Shown here piece after piece: positions 3,995 to 44,368 of a DNA stretch of 64,000 nucleotides (positions are counted from its first letter, which is position 1; the number at the start of each line of letters is the position of its first letter). The stretch is from an uncultured Blastocatellia bacterium (lineage in GTDB: Bacteria; Acidobacteriota; Blastocatellia; Chloracidobacteriales; Chloracidobacteriaceae). A model generated the notes under the pieces. It ran no database searches and was not told where the DNA came from. It saw nothing but the letters and a program-made list of their open reading frames with translations. The DNA is taken from contig CALGZC010000028.1 of the NCBI GenBank assembly GCA_937934745.1, positions 62,001 to 126,000 of the forward strand. Reading direction: 5' to 3'. The translations under genes were made by a program, and so were the position numbers.

Positions 3995-6142
3995 TCAGCG
4001 CAAATACTTTGCTAGCCAAGCATGCACCTCTTGAAACAAGTATTTGTTGTCCTCACCACGGAGAATCCAGTGATTTGCCTCGGGGAAGACGATCAGACGG
4101 CTGGGCACGCGGCGACGCTGAAGAATCGTCCAGTTTTCAAGCGTCTGGTTGATCGGAACGCGAAAGTCATTCTCGCCGATCGTGAGCAAAATTGGCGTTT
4201 GAAAGTTTGCCGCGTAGCGAATCGGATTTTGCCTACGCCACGTTTCATTCTGCTCCCAGACAGGGCCGCCGTTCATCAGCTCGCGGAAGTAACTGGTATC
4301 GCTCGTTCCATACTGGGACTCCGAGTTAATCAACCCGGCATGGGCGATGAGGCATTTGTAGCGCGTTGTGGTTGCTTGCAGCCAGTTCGCCAGGTGACCG
4401 CCGTAACTGGCCCCTCCGGCGGCGACCCGTTCGCCGTCCGCATAGGGAAAGGCGGCGGCCACCGCATCCACGGCTTCAGTAATCTCACTGCCACAGGTTC
4501 CGAAGGGATCGCCCTGAATGGCCTGGGCGAACTGCTCACCAAAACCGGTTGATCCGGTGTAGTTTGTCAGCACGACGACATACCCCGGCTGGGCCAGCAA
4601 GTGGTAGTTCCACCGCAGAAAGAACTGGTCACGGAACATCGTGTGCGGTCCGCCGTGGATGAAGGCAAACATGGGGTACTTTCGGCCAGGATCAAACCCA
4701 GGCGGCAGGACGAGTAGGTTGTGGATGCGTCGCCCGGCGCGACTGGTAAACCAAAAGTGCTGTAGCGGCTGCCAGTCAATCTGTGCGGCAGCCGCCACGT
4801 TGAAGTCGGTCAGTGCCGTATGGCGTCCGGCCGCCGGATCAATGCGCACAATCTCAGCTGGGTTGACGGCGCTTTCCCAGTTGGCAAACAGAAGTGGTGT
4901 GTCGGATTTCGGGGGCACGGCCAGATTCGTGTAACAGCCCAGCTTGACTTCCAGGACAGGTCTCGCTGCGCCGCCACCGTGCGCGGGCAGAGCAAAAACC
5001 TTTTCGTGACCGGCGTCTTCGGCCGTGACGTAAAGGGTTTTTCCGTCGGGCGCGATGCCGAAGGACTCCACCGAACGGTCAAAATCCGGTGCCACGACGG
5101 TCTCGTTGGCGACTTGGTTGGTTTGCCAGTCGAAGCGCACCAGTCGGTCAAGGTAATAGACCTTGCCTTCGGTGGTCGGCTGGCGCAGGGCGTACAGCGT
5201 CTGTCCGTCAGGTGCAAAGGCCGGGCGGGTATAGCGATGGCCCTTCTGAGTCAGTTGGCGCGGTTCGCTCCCCTGAGCGCTGACCACATACAGGTGCGTC
5301 TCGACCGGCGCGTAGGCTGCCTGCTGGCGCTCGGTTGTGGCCGTGAACAAGATGCTGGACCCGTCCGGCGTCCACACCGCATCGAGTGTGTCGGCAGCAT
5401 TGGTTTCCCGGCCGCCAAAGCCCGGCTCGGTCACAAGTTTCGTGCCGGCCAGGAGGTCGCGCGCCGGTTCGCTGCCGCTCAGCGGCTGCACAAACACATG
5501 CGTTTGTGTGTCTTCCAGCCAGTGATCCCACCGCCGGATGGGATAGCCATCATAGACCCGCGCCTTGTATTTCCGCGCCTTTCGCTCGGCCGCGATGCGT
5601 TGGTTGTCAGCGTCGTTGCGTGCGCCTGGGAAAACGACGCTTGAAAACAGCAGTGTCTTGCCATCAGGACTTAAGCGTGGGTTGCTGGCCCCCGTGGACA
5701 GAGATGTAACCCGCTGTGCTTCACCGCCTTCTAAAACATCGAGCAGATAGACCTGTCCGACCTCATCCCCTTCGCGTTTCGTGACAAATGCAATGCGCCG
5801 ACTGTCAGGACTCCAGGTGACGTCACTTTCGACCGCTTTTGTGAAGGTCAGCCGGCGCGGTGGCGTGCTGCCATCGCTGCGTACCAACCACAGATCACTG
5901 CTCTGGTCCTTCGGATCGTAAGCGGGGTCAACGACGGAAAACACCACAAACAGGCCATTCGGACTCGGCACAGGCGCACCGACGCGCTTCATCAGCCACA
6001 CGTCCTCATGGGTAATGGGGCGCTTCTTGGTCTCTGCCCCACCGGGCGTCTGGGCGTGCAGACTCGGCGCGGAGAAAGCAGCCAGGATCAAGGAACACAC
6101 ACTGTAGCCGAGGGCAGCAAGCAATGTTCGATTTTGCAACAT
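3995..6142 (-). CDS. Secreted S9-family prolyl oligopeptidase-type peptidase
   Basis: This 715-aa serine peptidase starts with a signal peptide (hydrophobic stretch then SLHAQ, residues 1-31). Residues about 40-450 form a TolB/DPP4-like beta-propeller with repeated SPDSRRIAFV, SPDGKTLLF and APDGKTLYV strands. The C-terminal alpha/beta-hydrolase domain has the nucleophile in GGASYGG (Ser about 579), the acid in GENDFRVP (Asp about 659) and the base in EANHW (His about 691). It resembles acylaminoacyl-peptidase and dipeptidyl-peptidase V types and should act on peptides outside the cytoplasm. It stands 74 bases downstream of galU on the same strand. Confidence 0.93.
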   Translation of the reverse strand: MLQNRTLLAALGYSVCSLILAAFSAPSLHAQTPGGAETKKRPITHEDVWLMKRVGAPVPSPNGLFVVFSVVDPAYDPKDQSSDLWLVRSDGSTPPRRLTFTKAVESDVTWSPDSRRIAFVTKREGDEVGQVYLLDVLEGGEAQRVTSLSTGASNPRLSPDGKTLLFSSVVFPGARNDADNQRIAAERKARKYKARVYDGYPIRRWDHWLEDTQTHVFVQPLSGSEPARDLLAGTKLVTEPGFGGRETNAADTLDAVWTPDGSSILFTATTERQQAAYAPVETHLYVVSAQGSEPRQLTQKGHRYTRPAFAPDGQTLYALRQPTTEGKVYYLDRLVRFDWQTNQVANETVVAPDFDRSVESFGIAPDGKTLYVTAEDAGHEKVFALPAHGGGAARPVLEVKLGCYTNLAVPPKSDTPLLFANWESAVNPAEIVRIDPAAGRHTALTDFNVAAAAQIDWQPLQHFWFTSRAGRRIHNLLVLPPGFDPGRKYPMFAFIHGGPHTMFRDQFFLRWNYHLLAQPGYVVVLTNYTGSTGFGEQFAQAIQGDPFGTCGSEITEAVDAVAAAFPYADGERVAAGGASYGGHLANWLQATTTRYKCLIAHAGLINSESQYGTSDTSYFRELMNGGPVWEQNETWRRQNPIRYAANFQTPILLTIGENDFRVPINQTLENWTILQRRRVPSRLIVFPEANHWILRGEDNKYLFQEVHAWLAKYLR

Positions 6143-6215
6143 TGTCCCAGGTCAGCCGAACTGTACCCCCACCCACGCACGGCGAGCGCAACGGTTGGGC
6201 AGAGGAGACAAAACC

Positions 6216-7079
6216 TTACAAAACAAGTGACTTGAGGTACGCCCGGAACTCAGGGCCGAGGTCGGGGCGCTGCAGCGCAAACTCGACGGTGGCAATCAAG
6301 AAGCCGAGTTTGTCGCCGGCGTCATGGCGGACGCCGATAAACTCATAGGCGTACATGGCTTGATCTTTCAGCAGCAGCCGCATGGCGTCGGTCAACTGGA
6401 TTTCACCACCGGCCCCTTTCGGCGTCCTGGTCAGGACGTCGAAGATTTCCGGCATGAGGATATACCGGCCGATGATGGCCAGGTTGGACGGCGCTTCGGC
6501 AAAGGGTGGTTTCTCCACCATGTCGCGGATTCTGTAGACCCGCTCCTCGATGGGATCGGCCGCCAGGACGCCGAAACGCGAGATGGCTTCCCCCTCGACC
6601 CGCGCCGTGCCGATTACGGAGCGCCCGTACCGTTCATACACATCGATCATCTGCCGTAGGCAAGGCACTTTGGCATCGACAATGTCGTCGCCGAGAATGA
6701 CGGCAAACGGCTCATCGCCGACGAGATCGCGTGCCATCAGGACGGCGTGGCCCAACCCAAGGGCCTGCTTCTGACGGACGTACGAGATGTTGATTTTCGA
6801 GATTTCCTGCACCTGCTCGAGCAGATCGAGCTTGCCCTTCTCCCGCAGGAGTTGCTCTAGCTCGAAGGAGATGTCGAAATGATCTTCAATCGCATTCTTA
6901 CCGCGACCGGTCACAATGATGACCTGTTCGACGCCGCTGAGGATCGCTTCTTCAACACCGTACTGGATGAGGGGTTTGTCCACCAACGGCAGCATTTCCT
7001 TCGGCTGGGCTTTAGTGGCGGGCAGAAAGCGGGTACCGAGTCCGGCGGCGGGGAAGATGGCTTTGCGAATTTTTCTCAT
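6216..7079 (-). CDS. galU: UTP-glucose-1-phosphate uridylyltransferase
   Basis: This 287-aa nucleotidyltransferase makes UDP-glucose for polysaccharides, glycolipids and trehalose or glycogen routes. The sugar-nucleotide signature AIFPAAGLGTRFLPATK, the lysine region EMLPLVDKPLIQY, QALGLGHAVL, FAVILGDDIV and the sugar-binding VEKP are all present in GalU order. The ATG at 7079 begins directly before this signature and matches family length; the longer reading frame upstream has no homology pattern. The gene diverges from tatA across a 303-base spacer. Confidence is high because GalU motifs differ clearly from RfbA/GlmU types. Confidence 0.95.
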   Translation of the reverse strand: MRKIRKAIFPAAGLGTRFLPATKAQPKEMLPLVDKPLIQYGVEEAILSGVEQVIIVTGRGKNAIEDHFDISFELEQLLREKGKLDLLEQVQEISKINISYVRQKQALGLGHAVLMARDLVGDEPFAVILGDDIVDAKVPCLRQMIDVYERYGRSVIGTARVEGEAISRFGVLAADPIEERVYRIRDMVEKPPFAEAPSNLAIIGRYILMPEIFDVLTRTPKGAGGEIQLTDAMRLLLKDQAMYAYEFIGVRHDAGDKLGFLIATVEFALQRPDLGPEFRAYLKSLVL

Positions 7080-8444: not shown

Positions 8445-9824
8445 TTACAGCCCGCCGTCCGCCTGCTCACGGAGGATCCACCCATCGGTCACGATCTCAC
8501 TTTTGCGGCGTACCCAGCGCTGCGGTCGGATGCGGTAGAACCTCCCCCTGATTTCCAAGACATCGGCTTCGACGCCGGCGCCGACGTCGCCCAGCCAGTC
8601 GTGCGACCGCAGGGACTCAGTCGGCGCTGCATAAGCTTTGGTCGGCGCCAGGAGTTTGACCTTGAATAAAGGCCGGGCAGCCGGTAGCGGCCGCGGACGA
8701 ATCTGTTCGCGTACTGTAGCGCGTGTCAGACGGTAAAGCGCCGTCAATCCGCCGACAAACACCAGAACAATCATGAGAACAACGCCCACGCCGATCAGCC
8801 GCGTCGTCGTCACCGCCGGCAAGCTGGCCTCCGGTGTGGTTGCATCCAACCGCGCGACCCCGTCTGCCGGGAGTTGCCCCCCCGGCGCATCCTGTAATGG
8901 CGTCTGCCGGCCGGGGATGTCACGCCCGGTTTCCACGGATTGCACCACCACTGCCGGTGTGGCTTCTGAGGGGTGCATCAACACCCGCTCGACCTCCGAC
9001 CAAAACAGAGCCAGGCTCGGATACCGTGCCGTAATCTGCGTTGCCGTCGCCCGGCGCAGGATGCCTAGGAGCGCCTCGGCGGGAGGTAAAGCCGCCATCT
9101 GCGCCGGTAACGCAGCAATCGGTTGCCCGACATACGCCACCGGCGGCTCGCCGGACAACACGGCGTAGAGCGTTTTTGCCAGACCGTACACATCGGTTGC
9201 CGCCGCATACGCCCGCCGCCCTTCGGCAAGACACTCCGGCGGCGCATACACACACACCAGATCGGAAACGACCTTACCGTCAGCGGGTGTTTCGTCGTCA
9301 GCAGCAGAACCGAAATCGGCCAGTTTCAACGTTTGGCGGTCATCCGTCAGCAGGAGATTACTCGGCTCAACGTCACCGTGGACGATACCCAGCGCATGGC
9401 AGTGGCTGAGGGCGGCAGCGACCTGCCGCAACAGCGGTAAGGCAACTGCCGGGGGCAATCCACCGGTCGCCTGGCTCAGCGCGGCTAGCGTCCCACCGGC
9501 CAGGTACTCCAGGACGTGATAATCAAATGTCACTCCAGACTTGTCGCGTGCTTGCCCACTCGCCAACCGCCGGACAATGTTTGGATGGCCAACACGGTCC
9601 AGCCATCGCCCTTCACGGCGAAATCTTTCCAGCTGCAGACGCGCCGGCCCGACCGTCGGGGACAGGTGGCACAAGTGGGCAACAAACGCCTTGATGACAA
9701 CGGCCTGGCGCGTGATGGGGTCAAACGCGAGGAACAACTCCGTTTCAGCGCCGGTCGCCAAATGCCGCTCGACGCGATAACGTTTATTGAGTTCACTCTG
9801 TTCAAGGTGCAGAACTGCCGCCAT
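8445..9824 (-). CDS. Membrane-anchored eukaryotic-like Ser/Thr protein kinase
   Basis: The 459-aa protein has an N-terminal kinase domain (about residues 15-275), a Pro/Thr-rich linker, a single transmembrane helix (VGVVLMIVLVFVGGLTALY, about 345-365) and a small C-terminal beta-rich, SH3-like extracytoplasmic tail. Kinase landmarks are the VAIK-type lysine in AVVIKAF, the catalytic loop IVHGDVEPSNLLL (HGD in place of HRD, so not the RD type), the metal-binding LADFGSA and the PPECL/DVYGLAKTLY segment. The glycine loop (LATGAETELF) is poor. Activity is therefore likely but not assured. It diverges from the ABC exporter gene. Confidence 0.85.
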   Translation of the reverse strand: MAAVLHLEQSELNKRYRVERHLATGAETELFLAFDPITRQAVVIKAFVAHLCHLSPTVGPARLQLERFRREGRWLDRVGHPNIVRRLASGQARDKSGVTFDYHVLEYLAGGTLAALSQATGGLPPAVALPLLRQVAAALSHCHALGIVHGDVEPSNLLLTDDRQTLKLADFGSAADDETPADGKVVSDLVCVYAPPECLAEGRRAYAAATDVYGLAKTLYAVLSGEPPVAYVGQPIAALPAQMAALPPAEALLGILRRATATQITARYPSLALFWSEVERVLMHPSEATPAVVVQSVETGRDIPGRQTPLQDAPGGQLPADGVARLDATTPEASLPAVTTTRLIGVGVVLMIVLVFVGGLTALYRLTRATVREQIRPRPLPAARPLFKVKLLAPTKAYAAPTESLRSHDWLGDVGAGVEADVLEIRGRFYRIRPQRWVRRKSEIVTDGWILREQADGGL

Positions 9825-35621: not shown

Positions 35622-36347
35622 TTAGTCGGCAGGGGGGTCAGTCTTGAGCAAGCCCTCACGCTGCATGGCTTCACGCAGCCGCTTGATGGCGCGTGCGTGC
35701 AGGCGCGACCCCCACGAGCGCGATAAGCCGAGCTCCGCCGCGTAGTCGGCCGCACTCCGTCCTTTAAAGTACAGCGCCTCAATCGTTGCGCGGTCTTCTT
35801 CGGGGAGTTGCGCAACCAGCCGCATCATGCGGCCAATGAGGTCGTCGCGTTCTAGCGCACGGGCAAAATCCAGGCTGTGATCGTCTGCAATGGTGAGTTC
35901 TTCGTGGTCGAGCGACAGCAGGTAGATCGGAATTAGACTTTCGAGTTGCGCGCGCGCTTCGGCGATGTCGTCGTCCAACGTCGCGCCTGGCGTCGGCGCT
36001 CCGGTGTCCTCCTCTGCCAGGACTTGGAGAAAGTCCGTAGTGTTGGCTTCAGCGCGCACCCGGCCGCCGTCCAGGCGGGCGAAGTTCGCCATTTTGCGCA
36101 CCTCATCCCAGATTGCCCCTTTGATGTAGTAGTGGGCAAACGTCACAAATGACACGCCGCGCGCCGGGTTGTATTTTTCCGCTGCACGGACCAGGCCCAG
36201 GTTCCCATACGCAATCAGTTCGTCAACCTCAACACTAGGCGGCAGTTTGCGCACGATGTCGTAGGCAATACTCCGCACATAGTGCAGGTGCTGCTCGATC
36301 AGGGCGTCGCGATTGACGTTCGGGAAAGATGGCTGCGTGCCACTCAT
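35622..36347 (-). CDS. FliA/WhiG-like alternative sigma factor
   Basis: The 241-aa sigma70-family protein has region 2 at about residues 15-95 (VEVDELIAYGNLGLVRAAEKYN and the promoter-melting VSFVTFAHYYIKGAIWDEVRK) and region 4 at about 170-230 (LPEEDRATIEALYFKGRSAADYAAELGL...LHARAIKRLREAM). An acidic linker of about 60 residues replaces a clear region 3. The closest pattern is the group 3 (FliA/SigD/WhiG) class, which in other bacteria serves motility, secretion or development. It lies 30 bases downstream of the transglycosylase gene on the same strand and may be co-transcribed. No flagellar gene is in the window. No anti-sigma factor was seen. Confidence 0.85.
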   Translation of the reverse strand: MSGTQPSFPNVNRDALIEQHLHYVRSIAYDIVRKLPPSVEVDELIAYGNLGLVRAAEKYNPARGVSFVTFAHYYIKGAIWDEVRKMANFARLDGGRVRAEANTTDFLQVLAEEDTGAPTPGATLDDDIAEARAQLESLIPIYLLSLDHEELTIADDHSLDFARALERDDLIGRMMRLVAQLPEEDRATIEALYFKGRSAADYAAELGLSRSWGSRLHARAIKRLREAMQREGLLKTDPPAD

Positions 36348-36377
36348 GCCGTTTCGCGCCACCGTACAGAGAAGCCG

Positions 36378-37475
36378 TCACCCGGCGGCGGTACGGCGGC
36401 GCGCGACGCGAGCGACAATCTGTTCTGGATAGTTCCGAATCTCGACAAACTTCTGCGCAGCCAGTTTAGGGAAGTAGCGTGCGGCGGCCAACGCCAACGG
36501 TGAGTCTTCGCCGCCCATGGAGAGATGTTCCCACTTGGTAGCCCACTCACGCGCAAAGGCGACGGCTTCCGGTCCTGAAAGACCTTCTTCACGGGCGCGG
36601 GCCAGGCCGTCACGGTAGGCGTGGCCCATTGCCACGGCGATGGTTCCTTCCCCACCATTGTAGGCACCCATGACAAACTTCCAGTATTCCGTTCCCTGCG
36701 GCGTACCGTACCGTGCAAACGCCGTTTCGGCCAAGCGCTGGGCTTTGATGTGGAGCAATTGGGCAGCCGCCGGAATGGCCAGACTCGGATTGAGTCGTTC
36801 ATCGCTCTCTGTGCCAGGCACGCCGACCGAAAGGCCTAGCTCGCGTGCTTCCCGCCGCCCGATCTGGGCAATGCCGGCGTAGCCATATTGATTCACGACA
36901 TCCGTCCGCAGTCCTGATTCCTGCACCAACAGGCTCTTGAGCAACGACGGTGGCAATCCTGGGCACTGCGCCACTGCTTGCTCAATAATTGCGTCGAACT
37001 CCCCGGCCGTCATCTTGTCCTTGCCAGGGACGCGCAGGGGGACATCACCGGGTCCGCCGCCGGGCATTCCACGCGCCGGTTTTTCCTGCTCGGACGGCAA
37101 CGCCGGCCGCTCCCCTTGCAGCGCCAGCAGTTCGTTGAGTGTTGGTTGGACAAGCTGGGCGCTAATGTCGTTCCATTCGTCAAGCAGCTCAGGGGACTGG
37201 GAGAGATCGGCGCCGGTCAGCTCGGGATGACGCGCCTGAAAAATCAGGTCAGTCAACTGCCACGGGTCGGTAAAACCCGCCTGTACTGCCATGACGATCG
37301 TTTTAAGTTCCTCGCGCGTCCGGCGCTGCGTCTGGGGGTCGGTTCCCAGGGCTTGTTCAAGGCGCGTGTCAAAAGCCGTCTTGCCGACCGTTCGTCCGGT
37401 TGCAGGCTGCCGAAGAAGTGCCTCGGGTCGTATCCGCGCCAGATCGGTCCGGTGAATACTCTGCTCGTTGGCCAT
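36378..37475 (-). CDS. Lytic transglycosylase (SLT domain) with extended N-terminal region
   Basis: In this 365-aa protein, residues about 165-300 form a lysozyme-like SLT domain: FDAIIEQAVAQCPGLPPSLL, the catalytic glutamate in LLVQESGLRTDV, YGYAGIAQIG and the late GAYNGGEGTIAVAM. The N-terminal 150 residues are helical and of unknown function, followed by a Pro/Gly linker. It cleaves peptidoglycan without hydrolysis. No signal peptide is seen, so export would need a dedicated route, as for wall-opening enzymes of type III and flagellar systems. It is co-directional with the sigma factor gene (30-base gap). Start ATG 37475. Confidence 0.85.
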   Translation of the reverse strand: MANEQSIHRTDLARIRPEALLRQPATGRTVGKTAFDTRLEQALGTDPQTQRRTREELKTIVMAVQAGFTDPWQLTDLIFQARHPELTGADLSQSPELLDEWNDISAQLVQPTLNELLALQGERPALPSEQEKPARGMPGGGPGDVPLRVPGKDKMTAGEFDAIIEQAVAQCPGLPPSLLKSLLVQESGLRTDVVNQYGYAGIAQIGRREARELGLSVGVPGTESDERLNPSLAIPAAAQLLHIKAQRLAETAFARYGTPQGTEYWKFVMGAYNGGEGTIAVAMGHAYRDGLARAREEGLSGPEAVAFAREWATKWEHLSMGGEDSPLALAAARYFPKLAAQKFVEIRNYPEQIVARVARRRTAAG

Positions 37476-40816: not shown

Positions 40817-42772
40817 ATGGCAAGGACCAACGGCGTTACACGGCCATCTCCTCCGCCTGTACACATCTCGACCGGTACACAACATCTTATTCGCCGGGGA
40901 GAAACCCTGTCCGGTATTGCCCAGCGGTATGGGACAACGGTGGATGCACTAATGCGTGCCAACCGGCAGATCAAGAACCCCAACCTCATTTACGCCGGGC
41001 AGACGCTGACCATCCCGGCAACACGCAGTGGCGCTGCGTCAAGCCAAGGCGGGAGTCAATATGTTGTTCGCCAGGGGGACACGCTTTCCGACATTGCTGC
41101 CCGCAACGGCATCGAGCTGTCACCTCTGATCAAAGCCAATCTTCAGATTCGCAACCCGAACCTTATCTTTCCAGGGCAAGTGGTCAACATTCCCGGACGT
41201 GGAGCAACAACCACCCCACCGACCACGTCGGCACCGTCGCGTCCGACTCCGCCCGTGGCGCAACCACCTGTGACGCGCCAACCAACGCCAGCGCAACCGA
41301 CACCACCGCGAGTGAATACTACGGCGCCGGTCGGCTCGATACCACGGACCGGCAACGCCTTTATTGACTCGATTGCCGCCGACGCCATCCGCAGCCAGCG
41401 CACAACCGGGGTTCCGGCCTCAGTGACGATTGCCCAAGCCATTCTGGAAAGCGACTGGGGGCGTTCTGGCCTGACACGTCAGGCGAACAATTACTTCGGC
41501 ATCAAGGGCACAGGTCCAGCCGGTTCCGTCACCATGCGGACACGCGAAGTCATCAACGGGCGCGATGTGTACGTCAATGCCCAGTTCCGCAAATACAACT
41601 CGGCAGCAGAATCGTTTACCGATCACGCGCAGTTTTTCATCCGCAATCAACGCTATGCCACGGCCATGCAGCACACTCACGATCCGTGGCGCTTTGCGGC
41701 GGAAATCCACAGGGCCGGTTATGCGACCGACCCGGCATACACGCAAAAGTTGTACCGTCTGATGCGCCAGTATGATCTGACGCGCTTTGACGCCATTGCC
41801 CGCAACGGTGGGCAGGCACCGGCTTCGCCCCCGGCCGCAACCCCCTCCAACCCACCGACGGCCGGCGCACGCGAGCATCGTGTGCGGATTGGAGAGACCC
41901 TGTCCGGCATTGCCCAGCGGTATGGGACGACGGTGGCAGCGCTTCAGCGTGCCAATCCCAGCATTACCAATCCCAATCGCATTTATCCAGGCCAGCGCCT
42001 GACAATCCCGGCCGGCAACGCACCAGATGCGCCGAGTCAACGGACACCGAGTCAACCGACGCCGCCCAGAACACCGACACCAACACCCGGAACGCCAACG
42101 GCGGGCCGCACGGGGATGCCGCGCACAGAAGGCCTGTCCAACGCCCAGAAGTTTGCCCTGTACGCCGACTACATCCAGCGGTTTGGCTCCGACAAAGCCA
42201 AGGCCGACCTGGCTGCCGGGCGGGTTGTGATCCTCGGACTGCGCGCCACAACTAACACCCGGACCAACAACGGCGAAGGCGTGTACGATGATCGGATTGT
42301 CACCCTGCGCAAGTTGCCAAACGGGCAATTCCAGGTGACGGAGCTGCGCGCCAACACCGAACCAGGCAGCCAATATGAAGACGGCTGGTCAGGACGGACA
42401 CGCCGCCCTATGGGTGTGGACAGCAACGGCGATGGGCGCCTTGACCTAGGGCGCCTTGTGGATGGAACGCACGAATACATGCGCGCCAATGCCGGGCCAA
42501 ATTTCGGACCCAGGCAGCCTGACGGCAACAACATCCTCATGCCGACGACCAGCCGCCCGGTTGTCCGGGATACCAATCACGATGGTGTCTTCGATGAGCG
42601 GGATCGCAATCGGCGCAGCTTTGAGGGCCAGACAATGTATTTCCACCGTGGGGGTGCATCCAATACTTATTCGGCCGGATGTCAAACCATGCCGCAGAGT
42701 GAGTTCAACCGCTTTTGGGACTCACTTGGCAATCAGCAGCGGTTTCAGTACGTCTTAGTCACGGTCAGTTAG
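40817..42772 (+). CDS. Three-LysM peptidoglycan hydrolase with glucosaminidase and SAGCQ-type C-terminal domain
   Basis: This 651-aa modular wall protein has LysM 1 (about 22-67), LysM 2 (about 82-126), a Pro/Thr linker, a FlgJ-like glucosaminidase (about 180-320; catalytic Glu in AQAILESDWGRSGL, then NYFGIKG), LysM 3 (about 353-400) and a C-terminal domain (about 430-651). The last contains two calcium-loop-like segments, DSNGDGRLDLG and DTNHDGVFDERD, and a late FHRGG...YSAGCQTM pattern that recalls the His/Cys of L,D-transpeptidase-like folds. No signal peptide is seen. The ATG at 40817 follows GGAGA. It stands 62 bases upstream of the inner-rod-like gene in the same orientation. Confidence 0.87.
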   Translation: MARTNGVTRPSPPPVHISTGTQHLIRRGETLSGIAQRYGTTVDALMRANRQIKNPNLIYAGQTLTIPATRSGAASSQGGSQYVVRQGDTLSDIAARNGIELSPLIKANLQIRNPNLIFPGQVVNIPGRGATTTPPTTSAPSRPTPPVAQPPVTRQPTPAQPTPPRVNTTAPVGSIPRTGNAFIDSIAADAIRSQRTTGVPASVTIAQAILESDWGRSGLTRQANNYFGIKGTGPAGSVTMRTREVINGRDVYVNAQFRKYNSAAESFTDHAQFFIRNQRYATAMQHTHDPWRFAAEIHRAGYATDPAYTQKLYRLMRQYDLTRFDAIARNGGQAPASPPAATPSNPPTAGAREHRVRIGETLSGIAQRYGTTVAALQRANPSITNPNRIYPGQRLTIPAGNAPDAPSQRTPSQPTPPRTPTPTPGTPTAGRTGMPRTEGLSNAQKFALYADYIQRFGSDKAKADLAAGRVVILGLRATTNTRTNNGEGVYDDRIVTLRKLPNGQFQVTELRANTEPGSQYEDGWSGRTRRPMGVDSNGDGRLDLGRLVDGTHEYMRANAGPNFGPRQPDGNNILMPTTSRPVVRDTNHDGVFDERDRNRRSFEGQTMYFHRGGASNTYSAGCQTMPQSEFNRFWDSLGNQQRFQYVLVTVS

Positions 42773-42834
42773 GTAACCTTGTCAATAGCCTTGGGCGTTC
42801 CATATAGGCATTCACAGAGGGAAAGGAAAACACG

Positions 42835-43350
42835 ATGAGCGGACAGATTGGGGGCGTTTCCGCCGGCGTTCCTGCCGGCGTCCCGCATCAACCCACCAAC
42901 ACCTCGGCCGGCGGCAGCAAATCCTTTGAGTCGGTGTTGCAGCAAATGTCCGAGCAGCCGGGGAACGTTCTGCAGCAAGGCAGTGGTGTCTCCGGTGTAA
43001 CGCTTGAACAACTGCGCGCCGACCTGATCAAGCGTTACACCGATCCAAGCGCCGGCGACTTCGGTTTACAGTTTGACGATGCCCGGCTTCGCCTTTCCGT
43101 GCTGCGGGACAGTATCCACGGTCTGAACCCGAACCAGCGCCCGGCAGACCTCCTCACCCGCTTTTCACAGGTGGAGAATCAGTGGAAACAGATTGAGGCA
43201 ATGCTCAACTCTGACCACGAGCTGTCGAAGGGCGAGCTGTTGGCGTTACAGGCACGCATGTACCAGCTCACACAAAATATCGAGATTCTCAGCAAGGTTG
43301 TGGATCAGGTCACCGGTGGCATCAAGACCATTTTACAAACCAACCTGTAG
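42835..43350 (+). CDS. Type III secretion inner-rod-like protein (SctI/YscI family pattern)
   Basis: In this 171-aa protein the N-terminus is Gly/Pro/Ser-rich without a signal peptide, then KSFESVLQQM. The C-terminal 50 residues follow the SctI/YscI/EscI plan: a Glu-Leu-Leu-x-Leu-Gln helix (KGELLALQARMYQL) followed by the conserved Glu-x-x-Ser-Lys-Val-Val helix (NIEILSKVVDQVTGGIKTIL). Inner-rod proteins polymerise in the periplasm inside the needle base of injectisomes. The preceding gene is a wall hydrolase; two unknown small genes follow. No export ATPase, SctV, secretin or needle gene lies in the window, so this is a homology hypothesis. The ATG follows AGAGGGAAAGGA. Confidence 0.6.
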   Translation: MSGQIGGVSAGVPAGVPHQPTNTSAGGSKSFESVLQQMSEQPGNVLQQGSGVSGVTLEQLRADLIKRYTDPSAGDFGLQFDDARLRLSVLRDSIHGLNPNQRPADLLTRFSQVENQWKQIEAMLNSDHELSKGELLALQARMYQLTQNIEILSKVVDQVTGGIKTILQTNL

Positions 43351-43357
43351 GGTGCGT

Positions 43358-43389
43358 CCGGCCGGCGCTTGCACTGCAACTCCGGCCGG
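43358..43389. other. GC-rich hairpin downstream of the inner-rod-like gene
   Basis: Two copies of the palindrome CCGGCCGG (43358-43365 and 43382-43389) can pair into an eight-base-pair stem with a 16-nt loop. There is no T-run, so a rho-independent terminator is not shown. Confidence 0.4.
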
Positions 43390-43393
43390 TAAG

Positions 43394-43421
43394 TTGACAG
43401 GCAGGTTGGAACCATTACAAT
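43394..43421 (+). promoter_or_regulatory. Near-consensus sigma70 promoter upstream of the 43569 gene
   Basis: TTGACA (43394-43399) and TACAAT (43416-43421), 16 bases apart. It would give a leader of about 140 bases before the next gene and separates it from the inner-rod-like gene. Confidence 0.6.
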
Positions 43422-43568
43422 CGGTTCTGGCTAGGGTGAGTCCAAGCTGTTACCAGCTTTTCACGAACTTGGTTGCACAGCTTACCGCAAGCTTGTAGGT
43501 GCATACGCCGTCTACCTTACGCCCCACGCCCCACATTCCACCCATTCGACACGAAGGGCATTGTGCCG

Positions 43569-43979
43569 ATGAAGCAACACCGTAGACCCCGCCGAGGTGG
43601 TAACCACAACGGCAACGTTGCCAAAAACACCAAAGGTAAACGTGCAGGACAGTCGAACCAACCCAACGGTTTACCGCAGTATGCGGATGAAGTTTATGAG
43701 TCAGCTGTTGTTCCTCAATCACCGGCCGAACTGGAAGCCTATTTGGCGACCCAAATGCGGCTTCTGATCCACGCACGGCAGGAACAAGAACGTGCGCTAC
43801 GTCAGATTCGTGCTTTGGGTGAACAACTCGCCCATGAGGGACAGGCATCTCAAATCCAAGAGCAGTACGCAAAGGCCGTTGCACTCTGGCAGGCTTCACG
43901 CCGCAATGGTGTGAGCGCCCGTCAAAAGTTGCTGTTCGCTATGTCTGAGAAACTCATGATTGACACAAATGTGCCATGA
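43569..43979 (+). CDS. Small protein with basic N-terminus and coiled-coil C-terminus, unknown
   Basis: Not recognised. The 136-aa protein has an Arg/Lys/Asn/Gly-rich, probably disordered N-terminus (KQHRRPRRGGNHNGN; NTKGKRAGQSNQPNG) and a helical, Gln/Glu/Ala-rich part from about residue 48 to 135 (TQMRLLIHARQEQERALRQI; GQASQIQEQYAKAVALWQAS) that is probably a coiled coil. A GTG two codons upstream (43563) has a better-spaced GAAGGG and may be the true start. Its stop overlaps the ATG of the next gene (ATGA), so the two are an operon. The position after the inner-rod-like gene suggests, but does not show, a shared role. Confidence 0.7.
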   Translation: MKQHRRPRRGGNHNGNVAKNTKGKRAGQSNQPNGLPQYADEVYESAVVPQSPAELEAYLATQMRLLIHARQEQERALRQIRALGEQLAHEGQASQIQEQYAKAVALWQASRRNGVSARQKLLFAMSEKLMIDTNVP

Positions 43980-44368
43980 CTAACACCGGGGCGTCGTCAG
44001 TTGTACTGGACACATTACTGGTTCATCGTATCCATGAGCTGGCGCGCGCCCTTGGTGTCGCTTCTGACTCATTCCTCTTCAACGACTTCACGACCGTTGA
44101 CACCGAACTGGTGCACCAAATTGCAGACGGCTTAACCCTGGCGTTTGTTACCCACTGCTACCACCACCACCCACGCGGCGAAAACGTCTATGAGCTGATG
44201 GCATTAGAAGAACAAACGCCACCTAACACGGCGGAAGCCATCGCACTCGAAGCGCGGATTGAGCAGGCGGCAGCAGCGCAAATCCCCTTTGTCGTCAACA
44301 CCAATCGGCTACTGGAGGACTACTACCATATCCGCCGTAGCTTGGATGAATATCTCGCCAACGCCTGA
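43976..44368 (+). CDS. Small helical protein, unknown, coupled to the 43569 gene
   Basis: Not recognised. This 130-aa, mostly helical acidic protein has no signal peptide or membrane segment. It has a His-rich stretch (THCYHHHPRGEN) in the middle and ends with a helix (RLLEDYYHIRRSLDEYLANA). It starts inside the stop of the preceding gene (four-base overlap), so the two proteins are probably made in equal amounts and may interact, for example as a chaperone and client. It is the last gene before a 454-base spacer. Confidence 0.7.
   Translation: MTNTGASSVVLDTLLVHRIHELARALGVASDSFLFNDFTTVDTELVHQIADGLTLAFVTHCYHHHPRGENVYELMALEEQTPPNTAEAIALEARIEQAAAAQIPFVVNTNRLLEDYYHIRRSLDEYLANA

Follow-up and report, generated by a model that had tools for sequence, protein, structure and literature searches.

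A divergent SctI and the scattered genes of a probable non-flagellar type III secretion system in Chloracidobacterium and other Blastocatellia

Introduction

Non-flagellar type III secretion systems (NF-T3SS) were found only in Chlamydiae, Proteobacteria and Verrucomicrobia in the 2012 survey of Abby and Rocha, in which the Acidobacteria were reported to have flagella and no injectisome (PMC3459982). The ancestral NF-T3SS was inferred there to have possessed the SctF needle and to have been without a secretin, a state in which none of the surveyed systems is found; the Myxo type is without both (PMC3459982). FliO is known to occur in the NF-T3SS of Myxococcota and of some Pseudomonadota (PMC12403147), and it has been proposed that the T3SS* of Myxococcus xanthus works with its Tad pilus (PMC12075869). 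Here, we describe a stretch of 64,000 nucleotides from an uncultured Blastocatellia bacterium (the window, which is C28:62001-126000 of its genome), in which the gene at 42835-43350 (plus strand) encodes a 171-residue protein that resembles the inner rod protein SctI. The genome is assigned to the genus Chloracidobacterium by 74% identical copies in two metagenome-assembled genomes of that genus; absences from it that are stated below rest on profile searches. It is very probable, as judged from sequence comparison, that the protein is the SctI of a complete NF-T3SS, the genes for which are scattered over the genome. A literature search, incomplete in its coverage, found no description of the present system.

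Identity of the SctI-like protein

The ORF at 42835-43350 ends as the preliminary description had noted, with an SctI-like C-terminus that reads ...GELLALQARMYQLTQNIEILSKVVDQVTGGIKTILQTNL. Hydropathy agrees with that description in that there is no signal peptide, and no transmembrane segment is predicted either. A regular expression for this C-terminus matched one of 1,921 open reading frames (ORFs; at least 60 residues, taken from part of the genome), namely the window protein itself. Amongst the SctI family models considered (NF038054, PF17001 and TIGR02497) are the best matches of the protein, and no other family in Pfam or NCBIfam offers a clear lead. All of the scores are under the cut-offs.

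These scores are amongst several results that count against the identification. The protein gives 14.6 bits with NF038054 (E=0.027; cut-off 39) and 13.2 bits with PF17001 (E=0.12; cut-off 32.4), 18 SctI orthologues give at best E 0.0024 with SctI profiles, and a PDB sequence search using the SctI profile recovered no rod protein. Alignment of the 18 orthologues by hhalign with an annotated Bradyrhizobium SctI gave P=0.0011, with 36% identity over the C-terminal 42 columns. NolB of S. fredii was also tried as an SctI counterpart, and no alignment was obtained.

The identity is fixed by position. G010 and G013, two genomes from the order to which the source of the window belongs, have the orthologous gene directly upstream of SctJ, in the arrangement sigma factor-SctI-SctJ-SctK-SctL-SctN-SctO-...-SctQ-FliO-SctR-SctS-SctT, and further orthologues, adjoining a gene for an SLT protein, are found within complete NF-T3SS clusters of other Blastocatellia. 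In Chloracidobacterium the SctI gene is no longer beside SctJ. Because gene order in the relatives settles the matter, the 171-residue protein is, on comparative grounds, a divergent SctI in spite of its sub-threshold profile scores.

Components elsewhere in the genome

Outside the window, the T3SS genes of the same genome are spread over six other contigs. C51 has SctV, the single FHIPEP gene, with an FHA-domain SctD upstream; C58 has SctJ, SctS, SctR, FliO and SctQ; C1 has SctN; C22 has SctU together with SctE-, SctF- and SctG-like genes; C73 has SctT; and C67 has SctL and SctK-like proteins. The core set of SctJ, SctN, SctQ, SctR, SctS, SctT, SctU and SctV is therefore present, and is of non-flagellar type save for the preference of SctS described below. 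By role, the parts comprise an export gate (SctRSTUV, with FliO), an ATPase complex of SctN and SctL with a SctK-like protein, the C-ring protein SctQ and a lipoprotein ring of SctJ. SctV, SctR, SctS, SctT, SctU, SctN, SctQ, SctJ, SctL and the SctK-like gene are single copies. The SctG-like protein, which contains TPR repeats, finds its best match in CdsG, and a SycD/LcrH-like chaperone (72 bits, sub-threshold) is encoded beside hydrophobic, translocator-like proteins. SctO was not located in this genome, nor was SctP found beside its SctL, SctP being present in the complete genome of a congener (G001). Also beside SctL, both here and in other genera, are a conserved TPR/PEGA-like protein and a conserved protein that resembles the product of a formylglycine-enzyme-like cluster gene (L129:18194-19504; C67 19501-20466, minus strand), which are possibly envelope parts.

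Could these genes belong instead to a degenerate flagellar export apparatus or a periplasmic flagellum, in which the SctI-like protein would be a rod protein? FliO is present (PF04347, 41.7 bits), a FliA-like sigma factor and a FlgJ-like hydrolase domain are encoded in the window, and SctS, which here weighs against an NF-T3SS, scores slightly higher with the flagellar model (FliQ) than with the non-flagellar one. However, SctV gives 731 bits with the NF model (cut-off 692) and 597 with FlhA; SctN (638.9 bits), SctR (223.2), SctQ (114.1) and SctT (174.7) pass the NCBIfam cut-offs for NF proteins, the NF models being the best for SctV, SctR, SctN and SctQ; and SctJ and SctU also have their top scores on NF models. 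SctJ is one short lipoprotein, unlike FliF, and FliO is known also from the NF-T3SS of Myxococcota (PMC12403147). There is one each of FHIPEP, FliP, FliR, FlhB and YscJ/FliF in the genome; hook, filament and motor genes were not searched for. In a tree of SctV, the NF sequences of Blastocatellia form one clade (support 100/99), which is parted (100/99) from the flagellar FlhA sequences of the class and adjoins the proteobacterial NF sequences (85/65). The tree, which contained no Myxo or Chlamydia sequences, does not show how deeply the clade branches within the NF-T3SS. A degenerate flagellar apparatus is, on this evidence, extremely improbable.

In G001, which comprises two contigs, contig 2 carries the examined genes, in the neighbourhood of 170 kb, 694-710 kb and 769-778 kb. 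The scatter is thus real rather than an effect of assembly, since the genes are dispersed along one contig. All of the T3SS genes examined are open frames and, across the genus, SctV is 90% identical and SctU 84-89%. The preliminary description had supposed an acidobacterial export system that is type III-like and either divergent or scattered, the 171-residue protein being its inner rod; this would have failed had the protein lacked a profile match and the whole genome lacked export genes. Export genes of non-flagellar type are present, and together with the gene order of the relatives they bear the supposition out.

Relatives

The expectation that the genes would co-occur across Blastocatellia holds: SctI and SctV (SctV being counted as close homologues, of >50% identity) are found together in 18 of 162 genomes of the class, with SctV alone in three, SctI alone in three and neither in 138 (Fisher p about 5e-18, uncorrected for relatedness). 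In the clusters of G030, G052 and G104, 15-19 kb separate SctI from SctV, and each cluster holds SctD, SctV, SctJ, SctK, SctL and SctN, SctE/F/G-like genes, a FliA-like sigma factor, an SLT transglycosylase adjoining SctI and a SycD-like chaperone. The stretch in G030 and G052 also carries SctU, SctQ, FliO, SctR, SctS and SctT, and SctO (PF16789, 78.8 bits) and an SctP/FliK-like protein are found in G030. In G104 there is a run of N within the sctE-like gene (L086, near 9190-9300).

One genome, G003, weighs on the other side, having SctI and SctU with SctV and SctL undetected despite 99% completeness. A single assembly gap may account for both, the two genes being <10 kb apart in G001.

An SctI orthologue of weak similarity is also directly upstream of SctJ in G154, from another family of the class (L080:706-2360). 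This more divergent pair is accompanied by its own SctV (41% identity), and the genes possibly represent a second type of NF-T3SS.

Needle, SctD and secretin

The SycD gene is adjoined by one for a 70-residue protein, the family of which has one member, from a relative, that passes PF09589 (HrpA_pilin; 25.9 against a cut-off of 25 bits), the others scoring below. For the copy in the genome of the window, the assignment comes from synteny together with a weak similarity (E=0.017). The C-terminus of this family is common to the SctF-like protein beside SctE/SctG, and that of the larger SctF-like family was aligned with rhizobial SctF at P=0.027; the larger needle-like family had no match when searched against PDB sequences. 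In L002, a 232-residue protein (5762-6460, minus strand) ends in 68 residues that are 74% identical to the neighbouring 70-residue needle-like protein (6528-6737), so that a needle-like end is fused to a hydrophobic domain common to the next gene (5303-5710).

The search of the genome that the preliminary description had proposed recovered SctN, SctV, SctRST and SctJ and did not recover SctC. No dedicated secretin was found. The genome has two secretins, of which PilQ belongs to a pilus-type operon and GspD to an operon for a type II secretion system (T2SS), and no secretin was seen in the stretches read from the clustered systems of other genera. In each of the six genomes that were checked, SctD stops at the membrane helix, and thus has no periplasmic part with which to meet a secretin. 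The parts list matches an NF-T3SS that has a probable needle subunit and lacks its own secretin; since there is none, export past the periplasm is unproven, and this too has to be set against the proposal of a complete system.

The missing secretin would also be expected of a remnant, i.e. a once-complete T3SS that has lost it and is decaying, with its parts dispersed and possibly re-used. The dispersal of the genes along one chromosome in Chloracidobacterium is in keeping with decay, as is the failure to find in this genus the DUF1521 protein of the relatives (below), a further mark against the main proposal. The open frames and the high identity of SctV and SctU across the genus are not, and the clustered systems of other genera are likewise without a secretin in the stretches read. 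Decay is accordingly a most unlikely account of the locus, if not quite so remote as a flagellar one.

Neighbouring genes in the window

Upstream of SctI is a wall hydrolase (40817-42772, plus strand) of the form LysM-glucosaminidase-LysM, in which the three LysM domains (PF01476) and the glucosaminidase domain (PF01832) of the preliminary description are confirmed, as is its start, the orthologues beginning at the equivalent codon. The enzyme domain is FlgJ-like (TIGR02541, 113.6 bits; cut-off 193), and there is no signal peptide. The hydrolase adjoins SctI in all seven Chloracidobacterium genomes examined. Its unassigned C-terminal domain (42065-42769, plus strand), which is strongly conserved in the seven genomes, contains two D-N-DG loops and ends in HRGG...SAGCQTMP; an AlphaFold2 (AF2) model of the domain was poor (pLDDT 44.8). 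The ending recalls the His/Cys motif of L,D-transpeptidases.

It had been thought that no injectisome genes were in view. Two further genes of the window are, however, orthologues of T3SS cluster genes in relatives, and their orthology makes them T3SS genes too. The first encodes a 365-residue SLT lytic transglycosylase without a signal peptide (36378-37475, minus strand; PF01464, 54.4 bits), which has 57% identity over about 309 residues to the protein adjoining SctI in G030; its orthologues adjoin or lie near SctI in G052, G065, G104, G131, G027 and G034. The second encodes a FliA/WhiG-like sigma factor (35622-36362, minus strand; TIGR02479, 108 bits, under the cut-off of 189.6), likely the regulator of the T3SS, the orthologues of which sit within T3SS clusters and, in G010 and G013, directly upstream of SctI.

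Downstream of SctI are the two small ORFs reported earlier, for helical proteins of 136 residues (43569-43979, plus strand; specific to the genus) and 130 residues (43976-44368, plus strand), the second overlapping the first by ATGA. Neither has a family match above chance in Pfam or NCBIfam. The order SctI-136-130, with the hydrolase upstream, is kept in 7/7 Chloracidobacterium genomes examined; profiles of the two proteins found no relatives amongst the ORFs of the T3SS clusters. The 130-residue protein gives a well-folded AF2 model (pLDDT 90.8), for which a fold search of the PDB returned no match at E<=0.001. The suggestion that the pair are a chaperone and its client is unsupported, as the link with SctI is confined to Chloracidobacterium and there is no fold or family match. 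A chaperone role is possible, given a weak SsaE-type co-chaperone match of the 136-residue protein (E=0.1) and the helical content of the pair.

Cargo and targets

In three genomes, G104, G052 and G065, the cluster has a gene whose product terminates in an RNase A domain of the CdiA-CT type (PF18431), adjoined by one for an immunity protein, CdiI_2 (PF18593), both domains scoring above cut-off. In L086 (10396-12353, minus strand) the toxin gene overlaps the immunity gene, and the same pair is found in L084 and L091. An RNase A toxin beside a CdiI_2 gene is a sign of an antibacterial toxin, and the system probably acts on other bacteria, at least in the relatives. It should be noted, as a reservation, that the pairs were seen in clusters of relatives and that Chloracidobacterium was not searched for toxins.

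Alternatively, a genuine T3SS might inject eukaryotic cells, such as grazing protists or algae, as ordinary injectisomes do. A SycD-like chaperone with hydrophobic proteins and a needle-like subunit would suit such a role, as would the DUF1521-similar protein in the clusters of several genera (PF07481, 52.2 bits in G030), a domain known from the secreted NopE1 of Bradyrhizobium (PMC6506597). The toxin and immunity pairs of the three clusters indicate bacterial targets, and the lack of a dedicated secretin also speaks against injection of eukaryotes, which we regard as unlikely.

Proposed mechanism

If the 171-residue protein is the SctI of a complete NF-T3SS, the export gate (SctRST) would secrete it, and it would connect the gate and the ring of SctJ with a needle or a short filament. 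The SLT transglycosylase, and in Chloracidobacterium the LysM-glucosaminidase as well, would probably leave through the same gate, as flagellar FlgJ does, and open the wall. The outer membrane could be crossed by a borrowed or unidentified channel (PilQ, GspD or another pilus), or the filament may remain in the periplasm, with a different machine taking over from it, which is the proposal for the T3SS* of M. xanthus.

Comparison with known systems

Closest in constitution are the Myxo-type NF-T3SS and the needleless T3SS* of M. xanthus, which similarly combine a non-flagellar export gate and sorting platform with FliO, the lack of a secretin and a probable antibacterial role (PMC3459982, PMC12075869, PMC12403147). 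Unlike these, the present system has a probable needle subunit (HrpA/SctF-like), SctE/SctG-like and SycD-like chaperones and translocator-like proteins; it occurs in a different phylum, its genes are scattered in Chloracidobacterium, and Myxo sequences were outside the tree.

With the canonical injectisomes (Ysc, SPI, Hrp and Rhizo) the system shares the order SctI-SctJ-SctK-SctL-SctN-SctO, found in G010 and G013 as in Bradyrhizobium, and an SctI C-terminus that aligns. It differs from them in that SctC was not found, SctD has no periplasmic part, FliO is present and SctI, of 171 residues, falls under the profile cut-offs. The chlamydial T3SS is similar in the scatter of its genes over the chromosome and in CdsG, the best match of the SctG-like protein; Chlamydiae, however, possess a T2SS-like secretin (PMC3459982), and Chlamydia sequences were likewise outside the tree. 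As with flagellar FlgJ, a glucosaminidase without a signal peptide adjoins a rod gene. In contrast to FlgJ, the hydrolase has LysM modules and an extra C-terminal domain, and the enzyme conserved in the clusters is the SLT transglycosylase.

In its parts the system matches the NF-T3SS that was inferred as ancestral; that the secretin was lost secondarily is the alternative. It may tentatively be proposed, though we find it doubtful, that Blastocatellia retain the ancestral state of the injectisome, with a needle protein and from before the acquisition of a secretin, and use it on bacteria with toxin-immunity pairs as cargo. The idea of an ancestral state becomes testable through a conserved system with a probable needle and without a secretin, found in Chloracidobacterium, which is culturable and phototrophic, and in other Blastocatellia; were the system indeed to carry the toxin-immunity pairs as cargo, antibacterial T3SS would have a second lineage besides that of Myxococcus.

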